Shown one piece after another: positions 2,576 through 11,834 of a stretch of 64,000 nucleotides of DNA. A program made the position numbers and the translations under genes. Positions within the stretch are counted from its first letter, which is position 1; each line of letters opens with the position of its first letter. Under the pieces are notes generated by a model that worked only from the letters and a program-made list of their open reading frames with translations, was not told where the DNA came from and did not search any database. The stretch lies in the NCBI GenBank assembly GCA_902791695.1, contig CADAWR010000010.1, positions 1 through 64,000 on the forward strand, read 5' to 3'. This stretch comes from an uncultured Bacteroidota bacterium (lineage in GTDB: Bacteria; Bacteroidota; Bacteroidia; Bacteroidales; P3).

Positions 2576-2605
2576 ACTTAGTAGTATAATAGTACATATT
2601 ATATT

Positions 2606-4864
2606 GTGCAGAATAAGGAAGATAATAACGACAAGCGCATGACGCGCGGGCCCATGGTGCTCTACCTGCTGCTCACACTGGGTGTGGGGGCGGCCATAGT
2701 GTGGGGCATGGTGGAGATAATGTTTGTGCACGGCGACGAATGGCGCGCCCTTGGCGAACGCCGTGAGGCGGGCCTGCGCAGCGACCCCGCGCGACGCGGC
2801 AACATATACTCCAGCGACGGCAAGATACTGGCCACCACGGTGACCGAGTGCGACCTGTACCTGGATCTATATAATAAACAGGAGCGCGACGAGCACGGCA
2901 ATGTGAAGTACGACAAGCACGGCAACCCCGTCGAGACGGGTCCTGTGGTCGACAGCAACTTCAGCCGCTACCTTGACACGCTGTGCCTGATGCTTGCCGA
3001 CGCCATGCCGGGCCATCCGGCCTCTTATTACCGCGAGCGCATCGCCGTGGAGCGCACTAAGGAGCGCCCGCGCCGCTGCTTCCTGGTGCAGAGGGATGTG
3101 CCATATTCGGTATGGTTGCAAATCACGCGTCTGCCGGGTTGGAGTCGTGCCGTAGTGCGCCAGGTCGACGGCCAGAGCGTGGTGCATCAGGTGAGAGCCC
3201 ACATCTACGGCAACATGGCGGGCAACACCATCGGTTTCCGCAACCGCAAGGAAAGCGGCTCATACACAGGCCTTGAAGGATACTACGACAGCATACTGCG
3301 CGGTCAGGACGGCTTGCTCAACTGCCGCCGACTCACCAAAGGTATATGGCTGCCGGACGAACCATATAAGCGCCGCGAGGTGGCCCAGCGCACCGATACC
3401 GCCACGGTGGACACCATAGTGCTGCAGCGCCGCATCGATGGCAGCAGCATCGTGTCAACTATAGATACGCGCTACCAGGATATCGCCGAGGCGTCGTTGC
3501 GCAAAGCCCTCAACATGTACGGCGGCACGGCTGGTTGCGCCATGCTCATGGAGATGAGCACCGGCTACATGCTGGCATGCGTCAATCTGGCTGTGGACAC
3601 TGCCGCCCATGAATATCTGGAGGTACGCGACCGCAACATAGCGGTGAGCGATGTCTATGAGCCAGGCTCTACATTCAAGACCGTCATTCTCACCGCCATC
3701 CTTGGCGACCCGGAGGTAAAGATAGACACCACGATGAAGTTGCCGGCACGCTACAAGAACTTCGGCGGCGTGAACGGCGAAATCAAAGACGACCACGGCG
3801 GATGGGACTCGTTGACACTGAAGGGTGTGATAGAGCAGTCGTCGAACGTTGGTATGAGTGATCTCGGCTGGCGCTTCTACAACCATCGTCGTGACACCCT
3901 GCGCAACCGAGTGGAGCGCATGTTCCCCTACGGTAAGATTAACCCTGACGTACAGGCTCCGGAATATAAGACATGGGTCAACGACCTGCACCGCTCTAAC
4001 CGTGACTTCCTGAACTTCTGCTATGGTTACTCCACGCGTGTGTCGGCCCTGCAGCTGCTGACCTTCTACAACGGTCTGGGCGCCGGTGGTCGCATGATGA
4101 AGCCGCTGTTTTGCAAGGCCATCGTCGACAAGGATGGCAACACTACCGAGATAAAGCCCGTGGTGCTGAACGAAAACATGTGTAGCAAACGTACGGCGGA
4201 GCTGATGCACGACATGCTGGAGGGCGTGGTGGAGAACGGCACCGGCAACAATATCAAGAACACTACCTACGGCATTGCCGGCAAGACCGGTACTGCAGTG
4301 CACAGTTATTCGAACATGAAGCGCTATAACGCCTCGTTCGCTGGCTTCTTCCCCTCGGAGAACCCACGTTACACATGCTTGGTGATGCTGGAGAACATAC
4401 CCGTCTACGGACGCCAGGCCGCAGTGGTCTTCAAGACCATCAGCGACTGTGTGGTGGCTGTAGACAAAGAGTTGAGCAATGGTGGTGTGAAGAGTGTGTG
4501 GCCGCGTCTGGAAGATGACAGTGTTATGGCGCAGCAGCGCCCCACGCTAACCAAAGGCAGGGAACGTGACATCAAGGAACTCTACAAGAAGCTTCGCCTG
4601 CCGTATGAGGAAACCGACAGCGCCACCACATGGGTGTGTTACATGCCTGCCACCGACTCGACAAAAGGCCATTATGTGCCCTACAAGCCGGCCAGCGGCA
4701 GGGTGCCCAACTGTTATGGCATGACAGCCAAAGATGCTATAGCCCTTTTGCATGAACAGGGATATAAAGTGAAGGTGAATGGCTACGGCAAGGTGCGCTC
4801 GCAGAATCCCCAGGCCAATCAGGCAGCAAAGAAAGGCACGACTGTGGTGCTGGAGATGAGATAG
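2606..4864 (+). CDS. ftsI: Septal peptidoglycan transpeptidase FtsI (PBP3 class) with PASTA domain
   Basis: This class B penicillin-binding protein cross-links septal peptidoglycan in the periplasm. An N-terminal membrane anchor (about residues 15-38) is followed by the PBP dimerisation domain. The transpeptidase domain carries Ser355 in STFK, the SSN motif at 412-414 and KTG at 560-562. A single PASTA domain occupies about the last 60 residues (VPNCYGMTAKDAIALL). The 752-residue length suits Bacteroidota members. The longest start is GTG at 2606; an in-frame ATG at 2639 (residue 12) is a good alternative because the GTG lacks any distinguishing signal. Confidence 0.93.
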   Translation: MQNKEDNNDKRMTRGPMVLYLLLTLGVGAAIVWGMVEIMFVHGDEWRALGERREAGLRSDPARRGNIYSSDGKILATTVTECDLYLDLYNKQERDEHGNVKYDKHGNPVETGPVVDSNFSRYLDTLCLMLADAMPGHPASYYRERIAVERTKERPRRCFLVQRDVPYSVWLQITRLPGWSRAVVRQVDGQSVVHQVRAHIYGNMAGNTIGFRNRKESGSYTGLEGYYDSILRGQDGLLNCRRLTKGIWLPDEPYKRREVAQRTDTATVDTIVLQRRIDGSSIVSTIDTRYQDIAEASLRKALNMYGGTAGCAMLMEMSTGYMLACVNLAVDTAAHEYLEVRDRNIAVSDVYEPGSTFKTVILTAILGDPEVKIDTTMKLPARYKNFGGVNGEIKDDHGGWDSLTLKGVIEQSSNVGMSDLGWRFYNHRRDTLRNRVERMFPYGKINPDVQAPEYKTWVNDLHRSNRDFLNFCYGYSTRVSALQLLTFYNGLGAGGRMMKPLFCKAIVDKDGNTTEIKPVVLNENMCSKRTAELMHDMLEGVVENGTGNNIKNTTYGIAGKTGTAVHSYSNMKRYNASFAGFFPSENPRYTCLVMLENIPVYGRQAAVVFKTISDCVVAVDKELSNGGVKSVWPRLEDDSVMAQQRPTLTKGRERDIKELYKKLRLPYEETDSATTWVCYMPATDSTKGHYVPYKPASGRVPNCYGMTAKDAIALLHEQGYKVKVNGYGKVRSQNPQANQAAKKGTTVVLEMR

Positions 4865-4885: not shown

Positions 4886-6343
4886 ATGAGACTAATAGAT
4901 ATAATAAAGGGAATTGAGGCCGAGGTGATCGGTGCGAAGGATGTGGATGTGAAAGACATCCAGTTCGACTCGCGCAAGGTCGCCGCAGGTACGCTCTTTG
5001 TGGCACAACGCGGCACCAAGGTCGACGGCCATAGCTATATAGGCGGCTCTGTTGAGAAAGGCGCTGTGGCGGTGGTGTGTGAGGAAATGCCAGATAAACT
5101 GGTAGACGGCGTAGCCTACGTCAAGGTGAAGGACAGCAGCGTGGCGCTAGGCATGATGGCCGCCAACTGGTATGGTCACCCGTCGGAGCAGTTGAAGCTT
5201 GTTGGCATCACCGGCACCAACGGCAAGACCACCACGGTGACCCTGTTGTACAGGATGTTCCGTCAGCTGGGCTACCATGTAGGCTTGATCTCTACCATAG
5301 TCAACAAGATTGACGATGAGGAGCTACCCACGGGTCACACCACCCCCGACGCGCTAGAGCTGAACCAGTTGCTGCGCCGTATGGTGGATGCCGGATGCAG
5401 CTATGCCTTCATGGAAGTGAGCAGCCATGCAGTGGTGCAGCACCGCATAGCCGGATTGCGCTTCGCCGGTGCTATCTTCAGTAATATCACACACGACCAC
5501 CTGGACTTCCACAAGACCATGGCCAACTACATAGCTGCCAAAAAGGGATTCTTCGACGGACTTGGCAAAGATGCGTGGGCGCTGGTGAATGTGGATGACA
5601 AGAATGGGCGTGTCATGGTGCAGAACACCAAAGCCGAGGTGCACACCTATGGGCTGCAGCATGATGCCGACTACCGTTGCAAGATACTGGAGAACACTTT
5701 TGAAGGTATGCACCTTGTGGTTGACGGCAGCGAGATGTGGTGTCGCCTGGTGGGCAAATTCAATGCCTACAACCTAATGGCTATCTATGGTGCCGCCGTG
5801 CTATGCGGCGTGGAGAAGGGAGAGGCCTTGCGCATTTTGAGTGTTCTGGAGGCAGCCCCGGGTCGCTTCCAGTATGTCAGCGGACGCGGTATCACCGGCA
5901 TCGTTGACTATGCGCACACGCCTGACGCCCTGCAGAATGTGATTTCCACCATCGACGGCATACGCATGCAGTCGCAGCTGCTTATCACCGTGGTGGGCTG
6001 CGGCGGCGACCGCGACCGCACCAAGCGGCCGGAGATGGCCCAGATAGCCGCTGAAGGCAGCGACAAAGTGGTGCTCACAAGTGATAACCCTCGCACGGAG
6101 AATCCCGATGCAATACTTGACGAGATGGAGGCCGGCCTAACGCCGCAGCAACTGTGCCGCACGGTGCGCATCACCGACCGCCGACAGGCCATACGCACCG
6201 CCTGCATGATGGCCAAGGAGGGTGACATAGTGCTGGTTGCCGGCAAGGGTCACGAGACCTACCAGGAGGTGAATGGTGTGCGCAGCCACTTCGACGACGT
6301 CGAGGAGTTGGAGAAAGAATTAGGAATTAGAAAAACGGAATAA
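4886..6343 (+). CDS. murE: UDP-MurNAc-L-Ala-D-Glu:meso-diaminopimelate ligase MurE
   Basis: MurE adds the third stem-peptide residue to UDP-MurNAc-dipeptide in the cytoplasm, using ATP. The ATP-binding loop GTNGKTTT is at residues 110-117. The DNPR motif at 400-403, followed by TENPDAI, is of the type that selects meso-diaminopimelate rather than lysine. The length of 485 is normal. The gene lies 21 bp after ftsI and ends with a heptamer repeat before mraY. Its C-terminal residues ELGIRKTE are encoded partly by that repeat. Confidence 0.96.
   Translation: MRLIDIIKGIEAEVIGAKDVDVKDIQFDSRKVAAGTLFVAQRGTKVDGHSYIGGSVEKGAVAVVCEEMPDKLVDGVAYVKVKDSSVALGMMAANWYGHPSEQLKLVGITGTNGKTTTVTLLYRMFRQLGYHVGLISTIVNKIDDEELPTGHTTPDALELNQLLRRMVDAGCSYAFMEVSSHAVVQHRIAGLRFAGAIFSNITHDHLDFHKTMANYIAAKKGFFDGLGKDAWALVNVDDKNGRVMVQNTKAEVHTYGLQHDADYRCKILENTFEGMHLVVDGSEMWCRLVGKFNAYNLMAIYGAAVLCGVEKGEALRILSVLEAAPGRFQYVSGRGITGIVDYAHTPDALQNVISTIDGIRMQSQLLITVVGCGGDRDRTKRPEMAQIAAEGSDKVVLTSDNPRTENPDAILDEMEAGLTPQQLCRTVRITDRRQAIRTACMMAKEGDIVLVAGKGHETYQEVNGVRSHFDDVEELEKELGIRKTE
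6317..6330 (+). repeat. Heptamer repeat at the murE/mraY junction
   Basis: Two identical units, GAATTAG. TAG triplets start at 6321 and 6328 (two different frames). The murE stop TAA at 6341-6343 supplies the third frame. The mraY ATG follows at 6349. Confidence 0.55.
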
Positions 6344-6348
6344 GAAAT

Positions 6349-7527
6349 ATGCTATACTATCTGTTTCACTGGTTGCACGAAAGTCTGCACGTCCCCGGAA
6401 TGGGTGTCTTCGAGTACATCTCATTCCGGTCGGGTGCCAGCATCGTGACGGCTCTGTTTATCATGCTTGTACTTGGCAAGCCCTTCATCAAGTGGATGAA
6501 GAACAAGCTTGGCATTATGGACGAGGTACGCGCCGAGCTCGGCCTCGAGGGAGCCGAGCAGAAAGCCAAGACACCGACTATGGGTGGATTGTTGATACTT
6601 ACCGCCATAATAGTACCTACTCTGCTGTTTGCCAAGCTCGATAACGTGTATGTCCAGATAATGCTCGGCACCACGGTGTGGATGGGCATGGTGGGTTTCC
6701 TAGACGACTACCTTAAGAAGACCCGTGGCAAAGCCGGTCTGCCTGGCAAGTATAAAGTGATAGGTCAAGTGCTGCTGGGTCTTGCCGTAGGTCTGCTGAT
6801 AACCTTTCACCCGGACATCAAGGAGCCGCTAAAGACCACTATACCGTTTGTGAAGAACAATGAATTCGACTACACATGGCTGGTGTCATGGATGGGCGAC
6901 TGGGCTGTAGACTACGCATGGGTTATTTATGTGGCCATAGTAATATTAATAGTCACCGCTGTGAGTAACGCGTCGAACCTCACAGACGGCATCGACGGCA
7001 TAGCCACGGGGGTGGCCGCCGTCAATGGTGGAGCGCTGGCATTGCTGGCATGGGTGAGCGGCAACGTTATCATGTCGTCCTATCTGAACATCGTTTACCT
7101 ACCCAATATTGGCGAGCTGGCCATCTTCAGTACCGCTTTTGTGGGTGCTACGCTGGGCTTCCTGTGGTTCAATACCCACCCAGCCGAAATATTTATGGGC
7201 GACACCGGTTCGCTGGCCATTGGCGGCATCATAGCCGTATTTGCCATACTCATCCACAAGGAGCTGCTCCTGCCGGTGCTGTGCGGAATATACCTAGTGG
7301 AAGACCTGTCGGTGATAATACAGACCACTGGCTGCAAGATTTACCGCCGCAAGCACAAGCTGCCTATGGGTGTGCCGGTGCCTGTGGAAAAGCGTCCATT
7401 CCTGATGTCGCCGCTGCATCACCACTACCAGAAGAAAGGTGTGGCCGAAGAGAAGGTTGTGATGCGATTTGTTATTATTGCCATACTGCTGGCTATTTTT
7501 ACCCTGTCAACGCTGAAACTGAGATAA
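6349..7527 (+). CDS. mraY: Phospho-MurNAc-pentapeptide transferase MraY
   Basis: MraY moves phospho-MurNAc-pentapeptide from UDP to undecaprenyl phosphate, making lipid I at the inner face of the membrane. Characteristic blocks are present: TPTMGGLL near residue 77, GFLDDYLKK, SNASNLTDGIDGIATG, GDTGSLAIGG, and the HHHYQKKG motif near the C-terminus. The 392 residues form the expected set of about ten transmembrane helices. It is followed 5 bp later by the MurD remnant, where a full murD is expected. Confidence 0.97.
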   Translation: MLYYLFHWLHESLHVPGMGVFEYISFRSGASIVTALFIMLVLGKPFIKWMKNKLGIMDEVRAELGLEGAEQKAKTPTMGGLLILTAIIVPTLLFAKLDNVYVQIMLGTTVWMGMVGFLDDYLKKTRGKAGLPGKYKVIGQVLLGLAVGLLITFHPDIKEPLKTTIPFVKNNEFDYTWLVSWMGDWAVDYAWVIYVAIVILIVTAVSNASNLTDGIDGIATGVAAVNGGALALLAWVSGNVIMSSYLNIVYLPNIGELAIFSTAFVGATLGFLWFNTHPAEIFMGDTGSLAIGGIIAVFAILIHKELLLPVLCGIYLVEDLSVIIQTTGCKIYRRKHKLPMGVPVPVEKRPFLMSPLHHHYQKKGVAEEKVVMRFVIIAILLAIFTLSTLKLR

Positions 7528-7532
7528 AAAAC

Positions 7533-8063
7533 ATGACTATAGAGACACTTGCCAAACAAGGCACAACACACACCGGCCTGGCCGGATTGGATACTGCACG
7601 ATTGAAAGCCATGCGCAACGCTGCGCTACGCTCATGCTTCAACAGGCTTGAAGACACGCGCTACAGACAGGAGTTTGTGGCTAGAATATTGGACCGTGAA
7701 TACATCAACGACGCCGGTGCACGCAATGTCGACGCCACTTGGTATGCCTTGGAGTGCATGCAGGGCGGTGTGGTATGGATAGTATGTGGCACGGATGCGA
7801 CAACCGACTACAGTCGCTTGGTGCCTGTGGCGTTGCGCAAAGTGAGAATGATGCTCGTGCTGGGTCCTGTGGGACAGTTGAGGCAGGCCTTTGGCGAGGT
7901 GGTACCTGTTATAGAGGAATGCCACTCCATGCGCGATGCATTGCACAAGGCCTACCTGTATGACGCTTCCGATGTGAAGGTGCTCTTCTCGCCGGCATGC
8001 AATGACGGCACGCCCACAAGTGCACTTGGTGAGGCTTTCCGTAGCGAAGTGAATGAACTATAA
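7533..8063 (+). CDS. MurD C-terminal-domain-only protein, degenerate
   Basis: This occupies the murD slot between mraY and ftsW but encodes only 176 residues (ATG at 7533; full MurD is about 445). The protein aligns with MurD domain 3: EYINDAGARNVDATWYALE resembles the family INDSKATNVNSTWYALE. It is followed by VVWIVCGTDATTDYS (family GGKDKGNDY) and VLFSPACNDG (family LLSPCCASFD). The ATP-binding domain with GSNGKT and the N-terminal UDP-binding domain are absent. Lysine in the SKATN motif and the FKSYEDRG block, which family members use for catalysis and substrate contacts, are replaced. It is therefore very unlikely to be a ligase. The reading frame is intact and the spacing to both neighbours is tight, so it looks maintained rather than decaying. 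Family motifs are quoted from memory. Confidence 0.78.
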   Translation: MTIETLAKQGTTHTGLAGLDTARLKAMRNAALRSCFNRLEDTRYRQEFVARILDREYINDAGARNVDATWYALECMQGGVVWIVCGTDATTDYSRLVPVALRKVRMMLVLGPVGQLRQAFGEVVPVIEECHSMRDALHKAYLYDASDVKVLFSPACNDGTPTSALGEAFRSEVNEL

Positions 8064-9306: not shown

Positions 9307-10413
9307 ATGAAAGCAATAATCAGTGGAGGAGGAAGCGGTGGACATATATTCCCCGCAGTGGCCATAGCAGGAGCATTGAAACAGCGTCATCCTGACGTGG
9401 AGATACTGTTTGTCGGTGCTGAAGGACGTATGGAGATGGAGAAGGTGCCGGCGGCGGGATACCGCATAGAGGGTTTGCCCATTGCTGGTTTGCAGCGCAA
9501 GCTGACGCCGGAGAATATCATGAAGAACTTGCAGCTGCCTTTCAAGATGGCAAAGAGCCGCAGCAAGGTTAAAGGGATACTCCGTGATTTCCAGCCCGAC
9601 ATAGTGGTAGGTGTGGGCGGCTTCGCCAGTGAGCCGACACTGAAGGCTGCGGCCGACATGGGTTATGCTACGCTCCTACAGGAGCAGAACTCGTATGCCG
9701 GACTTACAAACAAGATTCTTGCCAGGAGGGCCAAGAAGATATGTGTGGCATATGAGGGAATGGAACGTTTCTTCCCGAAGGATAAGATAGTATTTACGGG
9801 AAATCCGGTGAGAGGAGACATTGAGAATATGAACGTCACTAGAGAAGAAGGATGTGCCAACTTTGGTCTGGATGCAGGTGGTCGCGTGCTGCTGTCGGTA
9901 GGTGGTAGCCTTGGAGCTCGCAGCATCAATCAGATGATTATGGGGCATCTGCACTTCTTTAAGGAGAATCGAATACAGTTGCTGTGGCAGACCGGCAAAT
10001 GGATGTATGAGGAGGCTGTGGCTGCGGTGAAGAAAGCAAATGTCGAAGAGTGGGTTAAAGTGCACCAGTTTATCAGCCGTATGGACATGGCCTATGCCGC
10101 TGCTGATGTTGTGATATCGCGTGCCGGAGCCATTGCCATATCGGAGTTGTGCATTGTTGGCAAGCCAGTGGTGCTGATACCATCGCCCAATGTCGCCGAG
10201 GACCACCAGACCAAGAATGCATTGGCACTTGTGGACAAAGGTGCTGCAGTGATGGTGCGCGACGTTGAATGCAGTGCGTTGTGTCTGCCCCAGGTGCAGG
10301 AACTATTTGAAAATGCCGGTCATCGTGAGGCGATGAGTGTTGCCATCAAGAAAATGGCAGTATATGGTGCTGCGGACAAGATTGTTGACCAGATAGACAA
10401 TATTGTAGGATGA
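9307..10413 (+). CDS. murG: UDP-GlcNAc:lipid I N-acetylglucosaminyltransferase MurG
   Basis: MurG adds GlcNAc to lipid I to form lipid II at the inner leaflet. The glycine-rich loop SGGGSGGHIFPA (residues 6-17) marks the acceptor domain. VLLSVGGSLGARSIN and ISRAGAIAISELCIVGKPVVLIPSP mark the UDP-GlcNAc-binding C-terminal GT-B domain, and LLQEQNSYAGLTNK is also diagnostic. The length of 368 is normal. The stop overlaps the murC start by 4 nt (10410-10413). Confidence 0.97.
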   Translation: MKAIISGGGSGGHIFPAVAIAGALKQRHPDVEILFVGAEGRMEMEKVPAAGYRIEGLPIAGLQRKLTPENIMKNLQLPFKMAKSRSKVKGILRDFQPDIVVGVGGFASEPTLKAAADMGYATLLQEQNSYAGLTNKILARRAKKICVAYEGMERFFPKDKIVFTGNPVRGDIENMNVTREEGCANFGLDAGGRVLLSVGGSLGARSINQMIMGHLHFFKENRIQLLWQTGKWMYEEAVAAVKKANVEEWVKVHQFISRMDMAYAAADVVISRAGAIAISELCIVGKPVVLIPSPNVAEDHQTKNALALVDKGAAVMVRDVECSALCLPQVQELFENAGHREAMSVAIKKMAVYGAADKIVDQIDNIVG

Positions 10414-11834
10414 ATTACTACTTTTTGGGAATAGGAGGCATTGGGATGAGTGCTTTGGCACGCTTCTTCAAGAGGAGGGGCGACATGGTGAGTGGCTATG
10501 ACCGCACACCGTCGCCGCTGACGGAAGAACTGGAGCGCGAGGGTATTGCTGTGCACTATGATGACAATCCCTCATTGATACCTGCCAATATCGACAAGGC
10601 AGTGTACACGCCCGCTGTTCCGCAGGACTTGCAGGAGTTTGTTGCGTTGCGTGAACGTGGTGTGAAACTTGAAAAGCGTTCGCAGGTGCTTGGAGAACTC
10701 ACTCGTGGAAAGAAATGCATTGCGGTTGCTGGCAGTCACGGCAAAACGACCACCACCACTCTGATAGCTCATCTGTTGAGCAAGGGAGACTGCGGATGCA
10801 GTGCTTTTCTTGGGGGTTTGAGCAAGAACTTCGGCAGCAATCTGCTGGTCAACAACAAGAGCGAATATGTGGTAGTAGAAGCTGACGAGTACGACCGCTC
10901 CTTCCTGCAGTTACATCCATACATGGCTGTCATAACTGCAACGGATCCCGACCATCTAGATATCTATGGTACCCATGAAGCAATGATGGATGCTTATGTC
11001 CAGTTTGCCAACCAGACAGATGTCGAGGGGCGCCTTTTCCTGAAAGAAGGAATCTTTCGCACTCTCGATGGTGAAGAATATGTGGAATATGGTCATGAAC
11101 ATCACCACCATGAGGAAGGCCACGGTCACGAAGAGGTACGGAAACTTGCTAATCCCAATATTTCGACATATACCGCCCATGGTATTGATGCCGATTATTA
11201 TGCTATCAATGTTCGTACGTACAATGGTAACTTGTTCTTCGACATGCGTACACCCGACGGCGTGCTCTATGACTTGGAGCTTGAAGGCACAGCACTGTTC
11301 AATGTAGAGAATGCTGTAGTTGCTTCTGCTGTTGCCCTTGCGTGTGGCCTCGATCAACATCAGCTTCGCAATGGCCTCAAGACATTTGCGGGTGTGCGTC
11401 GCCGGTTTGACTATCGTATCAGAGAGAAGGAACTTGTCTATATAGATGACTATGCACACCATCCGCAGGAGATAGCGTCAACCATAGAGTCTGTACGCTA
11501 CCTGTATCCAGGCAAGCGGATTGTTGGAATATTCCAGCCTCACCTGTATACTCGCACGCGTGACTTTGCGGATGAGTTCGCCAAGGTGCTACAGGGGCTT
11601 GACGAGATAATAATGATGCCCATATACCCGGCACGAGAGAAACCTATACCGGGTATAACCTCCAGTATGGTGCTACGCAAGATAGATAGCATGTCTAAAT
11701 ACCTGTGCACCGCTGACCAAGTGCTCGAACTTGTGCCGGCGTTGTGCCCTGATGTGGTACTCACGCTAGGCGCCGGCGACATTGATCGCATTGTGCCACG
11801 CCTTGAGGCTACATTAAAAGAACAGATGTTATGA
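10410..11834 (+). CDS. murC: UDP-N-acetylmuramate:L-alanine ligase MurC with His-rich insert
   Basis: MurC attaches L-alanine to UDP-MurNAc with ATP. The N-terminal nucleotide fold starts YFLGIGGIGMSALARFF; the ATP loop AGSHGKTTTT is near residue 110; DDYAHHPQEI and FQPHLYTRTRDF mark the C-terminal domain. The odd part is residues 229-242, where eight of fourteen are histidine and most others are glutamate or glycine (HEHHHHEEGHGHEE). It sits in the central domain after EEYVEYG and could bind metal. The total of 474 residues is close to the family norm, so the insert is small. The gene overlaps both murG and ftsQ by 4 nt. Confidence 0.96.
   Translation: MNYYFLGIGGIGMSALARFFKRRGDMVSGYDRTPSPLTEELEREGIAVHYDDNPSLIPANIDKAVYTPAVPQDLQEFVALRERGVKLEKRSQVLGELTRGKKCIAVAGSHGKTTTTTLIAHLLSKGDCGCSAFLGGLSKNFGSNLLVNNKSEYVVVEADEYDRSFLQLHPYMAVITATDPDHLDIYGTHEAMMDAYVQFANQTDVEGRLFLKEGIFRTLDGEEYVEYGHEHHHHEEGHGHEEVRKLANPNISTYTAHGIDADYYAINVRTYNGNLFFDMRTPDGVLYDLELEGTALFNVENAVVASAVALACGLDQHQLRNGLKTFAGVRRRFDYRIREKELVYIDDYAHHPQEIASTIESVRYLYPGKRIVGIFQPHLYTRTRDFADEFAKVLQGLDEIIMMPIYPAREKPIPGITSSMVLRKIDSMSKYLCTADQVLELVPALCPDVVLTLGAGDIDRIVPRLEATLKEQML

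Follow-up and report, generated by a model that had tools for sequence, protein, structure and literature searches.

A maintained C-terminal piece of MurD in the dcw cluster of Bacteroidales with a probable MurD2-MurL route to D-glutamate

Background

Why should a bacterium keep, in the place between mraY and ftsW where the dcw cluster is expected to carry the D-glutamate ligase gene murD, a gene for only 176 residues of that enzyme, and by what route does it then provide D-glutamate for its cell wall? The question is raised by a window of 64,000 nucleotides (positions 1 to 64,000 of contig CADAWR010000010.1, assembly GCA_902791695.1) from an uncultured member of the order Bacteroidales, bacteria that are common in animal guts. 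The original prediction, made from the letters of the window, was that the slot holds a degenerate but apparently kept C-terminal domain of MurD, and that either a complete murD lies elsewhere, the remnant serving as a scaffold or regulator, or D-Glu is added in an unusual way. The genes concerned are the following.

4886..6343, + strand: ORF of murE, the next enzyme of the pathway; the genome's best Mur_ligase_M match lies inside it
6349..7527, + strand: ORF of mraY, the upstream neighbour, used as an anchor in locus comparisons
7533..8063, + strand: MurD-C, the C-terminal part of MurD without the ligase active site; ATG start, 176 aa
8076..9296, + strand: ORF of ftsW, the downstream neighbour, used as an anchor in locus comparisons
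9307..10413, + strand: ORF of murG
10410..11834, + strand: ORF of murC, the enzyme before the D-Glu step; Mur ligase match at C10:10422-11450

The names are assignments of our own: we take the flanking genes to be mraY and ftsW, and 9307..10413 to be murG, from sequence and gene order, while 4886..6343 and 10410..11834 are presumed from gene order to be murE and murC.

Results

The MurD-C reading frame opens 5 bases downstream of the mraY stop and closes 12 bases upstream of ftsW. Its sole NCBIfam match at E values up to 0.1 is TIGR01087 (murD), with a score of 66.3 bits that falls under the cut-off of 211.95 and with residues 28-156 covering positions 290-419 of 441; the match to Pfam Mur_ligase_C (17.7 bits) is likewise under the gathering score of 28.4. 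The AlphaFold model, built from an input alignment of 48 sequences (the window protein and 47 of the 48 named loci described below), has a mean pLDDT of 87.4 and a pTM of 0.77, which is indicative of a confident fold, and when it was compared with the PDB using Foldseek the top 33 matches were all MurD, the best being 7u35_C (E 4e-9, 141 columns). Reading frame, family model and structural search agree that the mraY-ftsW slot is occupied by a 176-residue C-terminal piece of MurD, as had been predicted.

The piece is larger than the domain 3 alone to which it had been assigned. The corresponding short protein of G041, a relative, can be aligned to residues 258-432 of E. coli MurD and starts at about residue 256-258; with the C-terminal domain of the E. 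coli enzyme set at residues 300-437 in the available text of PMC4816537, MurD-C would consist of this domain preceded by roughly the last 42 residues of the central one. Neither the UDP-binding domain nor the P-loop, the ATP loop of the original prediction, is present, since the TIGR01087 match opens only at position 290 of 441. At the columns of the catalytic lysines K319 and K348 (E. coli numbers, from the accessible part of PMC8788868) the window protein has, as placed by our alignment, Gly and Ala. MurD-C alone cannot act as a ligase. A split MurD with its 5' part encoded elsewhere was considered and rejected, because the eight matches in the genome include no separate N-terminal MurD fragment. 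In one relative (G002) a second, weak match of the short protein (E 1.7e-4, frame of 101 aa) occurs at C14:75000-78500, on a contig other than the dcw contig, and was not recovered by a local tblastn at E 1e-3.

The short gene was found in 36 of the 37 genomes of the genus, its own included, with 173-176 of 176 residues aligned at 39-100% identity, and mraY and ftsW lie on the same locus in all 36. The remaining genome (G026, 81% complete) also lacks a mraY match, which indicates that the slot is absent from the assembly. A scan of named genomes yielded 48 loci, each with the short gene in the mraY-ftsW slot; many of them come from sheep, goat, deer, yak and buffalo gut and are titled as Bacteroidales or Bacteroidetes assemblies. 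The two sets overlap, 18 of the 48 named loci being identical in sequence to genus loci. The recurrence of the same arrangement at 36 of 36 and 48 of 48 loci (18 shared) rules out an assembly gap. Among 15 disjoint close pairs (dN < 0.15, dS < 1.6, limits that bias the set towards conserved pairs) the dN/dS of the short gene ranges from 0.041 to 0.147 with a median of 0.073, and wherever these pairs cover its neighbours, the latter have medians of 0.035 for mraY, 0.055 for murG, 0.060 for murE and 0.087 for ftsW. Medians over 40 mixed close and distant pairs that share members are higher (0.27 for the short gene, 0.27 for ftsW, 0.11 for mraY), which we ascribe to saturation of dS in the distant pairs and which is the reason for using the 15 disjoint close ones. 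The short gene is maintained by purifying selection, and the low values in these pairs rule out a pseudogene. Neither an assembly gap nor absence from relatives combined with a dN/dS near 1, the two observations named beforehand as telling against a kept gene, was found.

The only MurD over cut-off in the genome sits on contig C7, beside MurL. The MurL gene, which overlaps that of the ligase, matches NF041275 with an E value of 2.5e-73 and 247 bits, under a curated cut-off of 700 bits that was set for Xanthomonadales. According to the parts of PMC8788868 and PMC5808125 that are available, MurD2 of Xanthomonas oryzae adds L-Glu, which MurL then epimerises, and in the former the L-Glu specificity of MurD2 is attributed to Glu197 and Arg358, where E. 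coli has Asp182 and Lys348. The C7 ligase has Glu and Arg at both of these positions, as do the second ligases of the genome and its relatives, a set that includes G017 (Glu in 39 of 39, Arg in 38 of 38 covered); the canonical MurD proteins from the same search carry Asp and Lys (18 of 18). The glutamate racemase MurI (TIGR00067) has no match in this genome, the assembly of which is 95% complete. As the C7 ligase carries the MurD2 residues and adjoins MurL, the window genome very probably adds L-Glu first and epimerises it afterwards, the L-Glu ligase and epimerase activities being those that homology would predict. A full ligase gene does, then, lie elsewhere, although one with the specificity residues of MurD2, and the suspicion of an unusual D-Glu addition is strengthened. 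A separate possibility, that MurD-C is a tail of MurD2, was rejected: the window protein matches the canonical MurD of other families at 31-39% and not the MurD2 of its own genome, and MurD2 differs at the marker positions.

Within the genus, MurL is matched in 33 of 37 genomes and MurI in none of the 37. The genomes without a MurL match are G017, in which murL was lost to a contig edge and MurD2 runs off the contig start, and G012, G018 and G035 (92, 96 and 75% complete), assemblies with neither MurL nor a MurD over cut-off; G019 has only a MurL fragment and again no MurD over cut-off. In four of the 37, MurL and MurD2 share one open frame (L099:1500-4226; also L098, L100 and L101), and a profile check of one such fusion, a 908-aa ORF in G005, matched both models. 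Frames of equal length (885-949 aa) with MurL and MurD2-like matches on one contig in G376, G115, G219, G309 and G143 suggest further fusions. An apparent M20-family amidohydrolase, identified by its sequence, follows MurD2 in the window's genome (L001, about 2600-3722), and in G014 an enzyme of this family is fused to MurD2 in a protein of 779 aa (L097:2691-5030).

Across 393 Bacteroidales genomes drawn evenly from the order, MurL was matched in 124 genomes (one, G088, by a weak fragment only) and in 68 of 206 genera, and MurI exceeded its cut-off in 241 and was matched more weakly in a further 37. By our reading of the rows, 27 MurL genomes are also in the MurI list, all with best E values of 6e-22 or worse and far under the cut-off, no genome combines MurL with MurI over cut-off, and 28 lack both at the thresholds used.

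The state of canonical MurD was scored with the G041 short form as query in 122 MurL genomes (80 plus 42), the window's own genome being left out and G088 serving as a control. It is full length in 67, where it is retained beside MurL without MurI over cut-off, and short, in frames of 178-245 aa, in 46; three genes are cut by contig ends (G131, G143, G416) and six genomes have a MurD2-like match only. The 67 indicate that MurL alone does not make the ligase useless. All 46 short genes share a locus with mraY and 45 of them with ftsW, the contig of G399 ending before ftsW. As for the six, G196 has a murD running off a contig end; G056, G165 and G272 have no convincing mraY match, so that the murD slot was not seen; and G113 and G217, which belong to one genus, have a mraY that is not followed by murD. 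The absence from the last two is a real loss, and the notion that MurD-C is never lost was dropped because they have MurL without it. Their mraY lies outside the dcw cluster, near murL in G217 (L277) and followed by an unrelated gene in G113 (L278), in neither case with murD.

Among controls picked from strong MurI matches, MurD is full length in 80 of 80 genomes from 71 genera and short in none; a second MurI set gave 16 of 17, the exception (G053, 70% complete) also lacking a mraY match. Eight extra genomes comprise six that have neither MurL nor MurI over cut-off and a full-length MurD, G088 with a frame of 272 aa, and G051 with a short form. G051, a 98% complete genome from a different family, carries a highly degenerate short MurD in the mraY-ftsW slot (G051:C4:294000-306000, 5549-6061; loci L092 and L286); profile searches found neither MurL nor MurI nor a MurD-type ligase there, and from place, score and sequence we take its four Mur_ligase_M matches to be MurE, MurF, MurC and FolC. 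One candidate short-form genome (G042) was dropped, its gene ending at a contig end.

These states were mapped on a tree of MraY and FtsW from 115 genomes (56 short, 56 full, 3 ambiguous), a quick build that has SH-aLRT support only and is based on two genes that flank the scored trait. The fewest state changes are 16; with truncation taken as irreversible there are 19 all-short clades, or 18 and 10 when branches with support below 80 and below 95, respectively, are collapsed. The truncation arose independently at least 10 times. Genus codes g118 and g6 each contain both states, and MurI versus the rest requires only two changes on the same tree (G051 left out). That the same cut recurs across Bacteroidales lies beyond what could be seen from the window.

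If the first ATG downstream of mraY is taken as the start, 49 of the 56 short proteins open exactly where full-length MurD has a particular internal Met, and the number rises to 53 with a tolerance of five residues. A separate count of motifs gave 56, of which two (G044, G112) are misplaced. Both catalytic lysines are present in all 56 full-length MurD sequences compared, 16 from MurI genomes and 40 from MurL genomes. Of the 42 short forms not belonging to family f1, 8 have the pair (K319 in 21, K348 in 10, 2 gaps); in the short forms of f1 they occur together in none of 13 (K319 in 3, K348 in 1). Loss of the HNxxN motif runs parallel to that of the lysines. With columns counted from the internal Met, Asp62 is invariant in all four groups (full MurD of MurI and of MurL genomes, f1 short, other short), Ser156, Pro157, Val106, Ala139 and Phe175 exceed 90% in all four, and Trp84, at 62% in MurI genomes, reaches 100% in the full-length proteins of MurL genomes and in the two groups of short forms. 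Such a pattern points to decay of the catalytic lysines after truncation and retention of the core of the fold. At the 65 MurI-invariant columns before the internal Met, conservation in the full MurD of MurL genomes averages 95%, and the protein therefore looks like a working enzyme.

The internal Met itself is present in 15 of 16 full MurD sequences of MurI genomes and in 32 of 40 of a second MurI set. Bacteroidetes are described, in the portion of PMC6847099 available, as being without Shine-Dalgarno sites and as depending for initiation on features such as an A at -3 and mRNA structure. Upstream of the internal Met in MurL genomes (38 genes) the base fractions are A 0.48 and G 0.08, compared with A 0.53 and G 0.06 at short-gene starts (in a first set of 59 'short' starts that includes 3 contig-edge genes), A 0.33 and G 0.21 at other internal Mets, and A 0.35 and G 0.16 at the same Met in MurI genomes. 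Two tests fixed beforehand were run on newly fetched genes, 20 from MurL and 40 from MurI genomes, with the Met present in 20 and 32. Over the codon-resampled expectation the excess of A was +0.042 in MurL versus +0.005 in MurI genomes (p 0.006), the deficit of G was -0.033 versus -0.008 (p 0.026), and low structure at the Met was stronger in MurL genomes (rank 0.88 versus 0.72, p 0.003), all three p values ignoring kinship. This amounts to a small effect, roughly one additional A per 24 bases once amino acids are allowed for, and start-like signs are also seen in some MurI outgroups. The start-like surroundings support, without proving, the production of a free MurD-C from full-length murD.

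Discussion

We propose that the MurD2-MurL pair made the dcw ligase dispensable and that MurD-C is a pseudoenzyme, a docking subunit of the complex that synthesises the cell wall precursor; the chances that this is right and that it is wrong seem to us about equal. The MurD2-MurL route would have taken over the D-Glu step, and with D-Glu made in this way the ligase chemistry of the old dcw murD would have become dispensable. The 5' part of murD would then have been deleted up to the conserved internal Met codon, leaving a protein that is folded and under selection but has no active site. MurD-C would most likely keep the contacts of MurD in the precursor-synthesis complex (with MurE, MurG, MraY, FtsW or MreB), and it may also dock MurD2-MurL there. 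Docking is the role that we infer as the best reading of the conservation at the protein level, the fixed place between mraY and ftsW and the survival of the piece when the catalytic part goes, and it is made plausible by the contacts of MurD with MurG and MreB reported, along with Bordetella and Thermotoga scaffolds, in the accessible part of PMC6420597. Against this explanation stand G113 and G217, which have MurL without MurD-C, so that the latter is not indispensable in every MurL lineage, as well as G012, G018 and G035 without MurL or MurD over cut-off, and G051, which has a short form without MurL, MurI or MurD. Two further points count against it: 67 of the 122 MurL genomes retain a full-length MurD, with both catalytic lysines in the 40 analysed, and the MurL score lies under the curated cut-off of its model.

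The main rival casts MurD-C as a regulator, a subunit of MurD2 or MurL, allosteric or accessory to catalysis, that would tune the rate or hold an intermediate. The occurrence of short forms in 46 of 122 MurL genomes versus 0 of 80 MurI genomes (G051 being the exception) agrees with such a role, as do the stronger start-like signs at the internal Met in MurL genomes. However, G113 and G217 have MurL and a second MurD match that resembles MurD2 in its score, but no MurD-C, G051 has MurD-C without MurL, and the location of 46 of 46 short genes on the mraY locus is what might be expected of a part of the membrane complex; we regard this alternative as rather unlikely. It is improbable that the frame is retained as an operon element, for instance for translational coupling from mraY to ftsW, and not for its protein: the constant place between the two genes would fit, but selection acts at the protein level, core residues are kept, and the distance between the mraY stop and the start codon ranges between 1 and 274 bases (median 32 at 56 short-form loci, a few of the long gaps possibly reflecting a frame break in mraY). 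Still less credible is a decaying relic on its way to loss, as the absence of catalytic residues and a Pfam score under the gathering score might suggest; this is contradicted by the dN/dS of 0.04-0.15 in the 15 disjoint close pairs, by alignments that span at least 173 of the 176 residues in each of the 36 genus genomes with the gene, and by the persistence of the piece in at least 10 independent truncations. An artefact of assembly or sequencing could be imagined from the titles of the named relatives, which are metagenome or uncultured assemblies, but is contradicted by the identical arrangement at 36 of 36 and 48 of 48 loci (18 shared) and by a short form on a contig of 5.26 Mb (G293), and we give it practically no weight.

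MurD-C may be older in origin than the truncations. We raise as a tentative possibility, somewhat doubtful at present, that in MurL lineages the full murD specifies two products, the ligase and a free non-enzymatic C-terminal domain initiated at the internal AUG (MT[L/I]ExLALQG[K/R]HN), and that, once the ligase was no longer needed because of MurD2-MurL, repeated deletions removed the 5' two thirds and left the internal gene. Whatever its origin, the recurrence of the cut and the preservation of the remainder suggest that the leftover piece of MurD has a job of its own.

A second route to D-Glu for the cell wall is probable in about a third of the sampled Bacteroidales genomes, and the division between MurL and MurI would bear on the response of such bacteria to inhibitors of MurI, MurD or MurD2. 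The truncations amount to a natural dissection, in which the catalytic two thirds of MurD, essential in well-studied bacteria, were repeatedly removed and one domain was kept; its retention suggests that a Mur ligase has a structural role, one that can be approached in a protein of 176 residues.

Comparison with known systems

In a literature search that left most subscription journals outside its range, we found no paper with a short MurD in its title and none on internal translation of MurD in Bacteroidetes. The MurL route is named for Proteobacteria and actinobacteria in the available part of PMC8788868, and that of PMC5808125 adds orthologues of low similarity in a fungus, cyanobacteria and an amoeba; Bacteroidetes are not named in these accessible portions, the MurL/MurD2 literature that the same search returned. 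The 'MurL' of PMC7215955, as far as its available text goes, is a spelling of the racemase MurI. The Bordetella and Thermotoga scaffolds are MurG and MreB themselves, a free-standing MurD domain not being described in the accessible part of PMC6420597. Canonical MurD (TIGR01087) resembles MurD-C in its C-terminal domain, in the end of its central domain and in its place between mraY and ftsW, but is about 445 residues long; MurD-C has 176 and is without the UDP-binding domain, the P-loop and the catalytic lysines. The closest parallel to the accompanying pair is MurD2-MurL of X. oryzae (XOO_1320/XOO_1319), likewise an adjacent MurL and a MurD with the Glu/Arg signature in the absence of MurI; unlike that pair, the one described here is sometimes fused, occurs in about a third of the sampled Bacteroidales and is accompanied by a dcw MurD that is either reduced or full.
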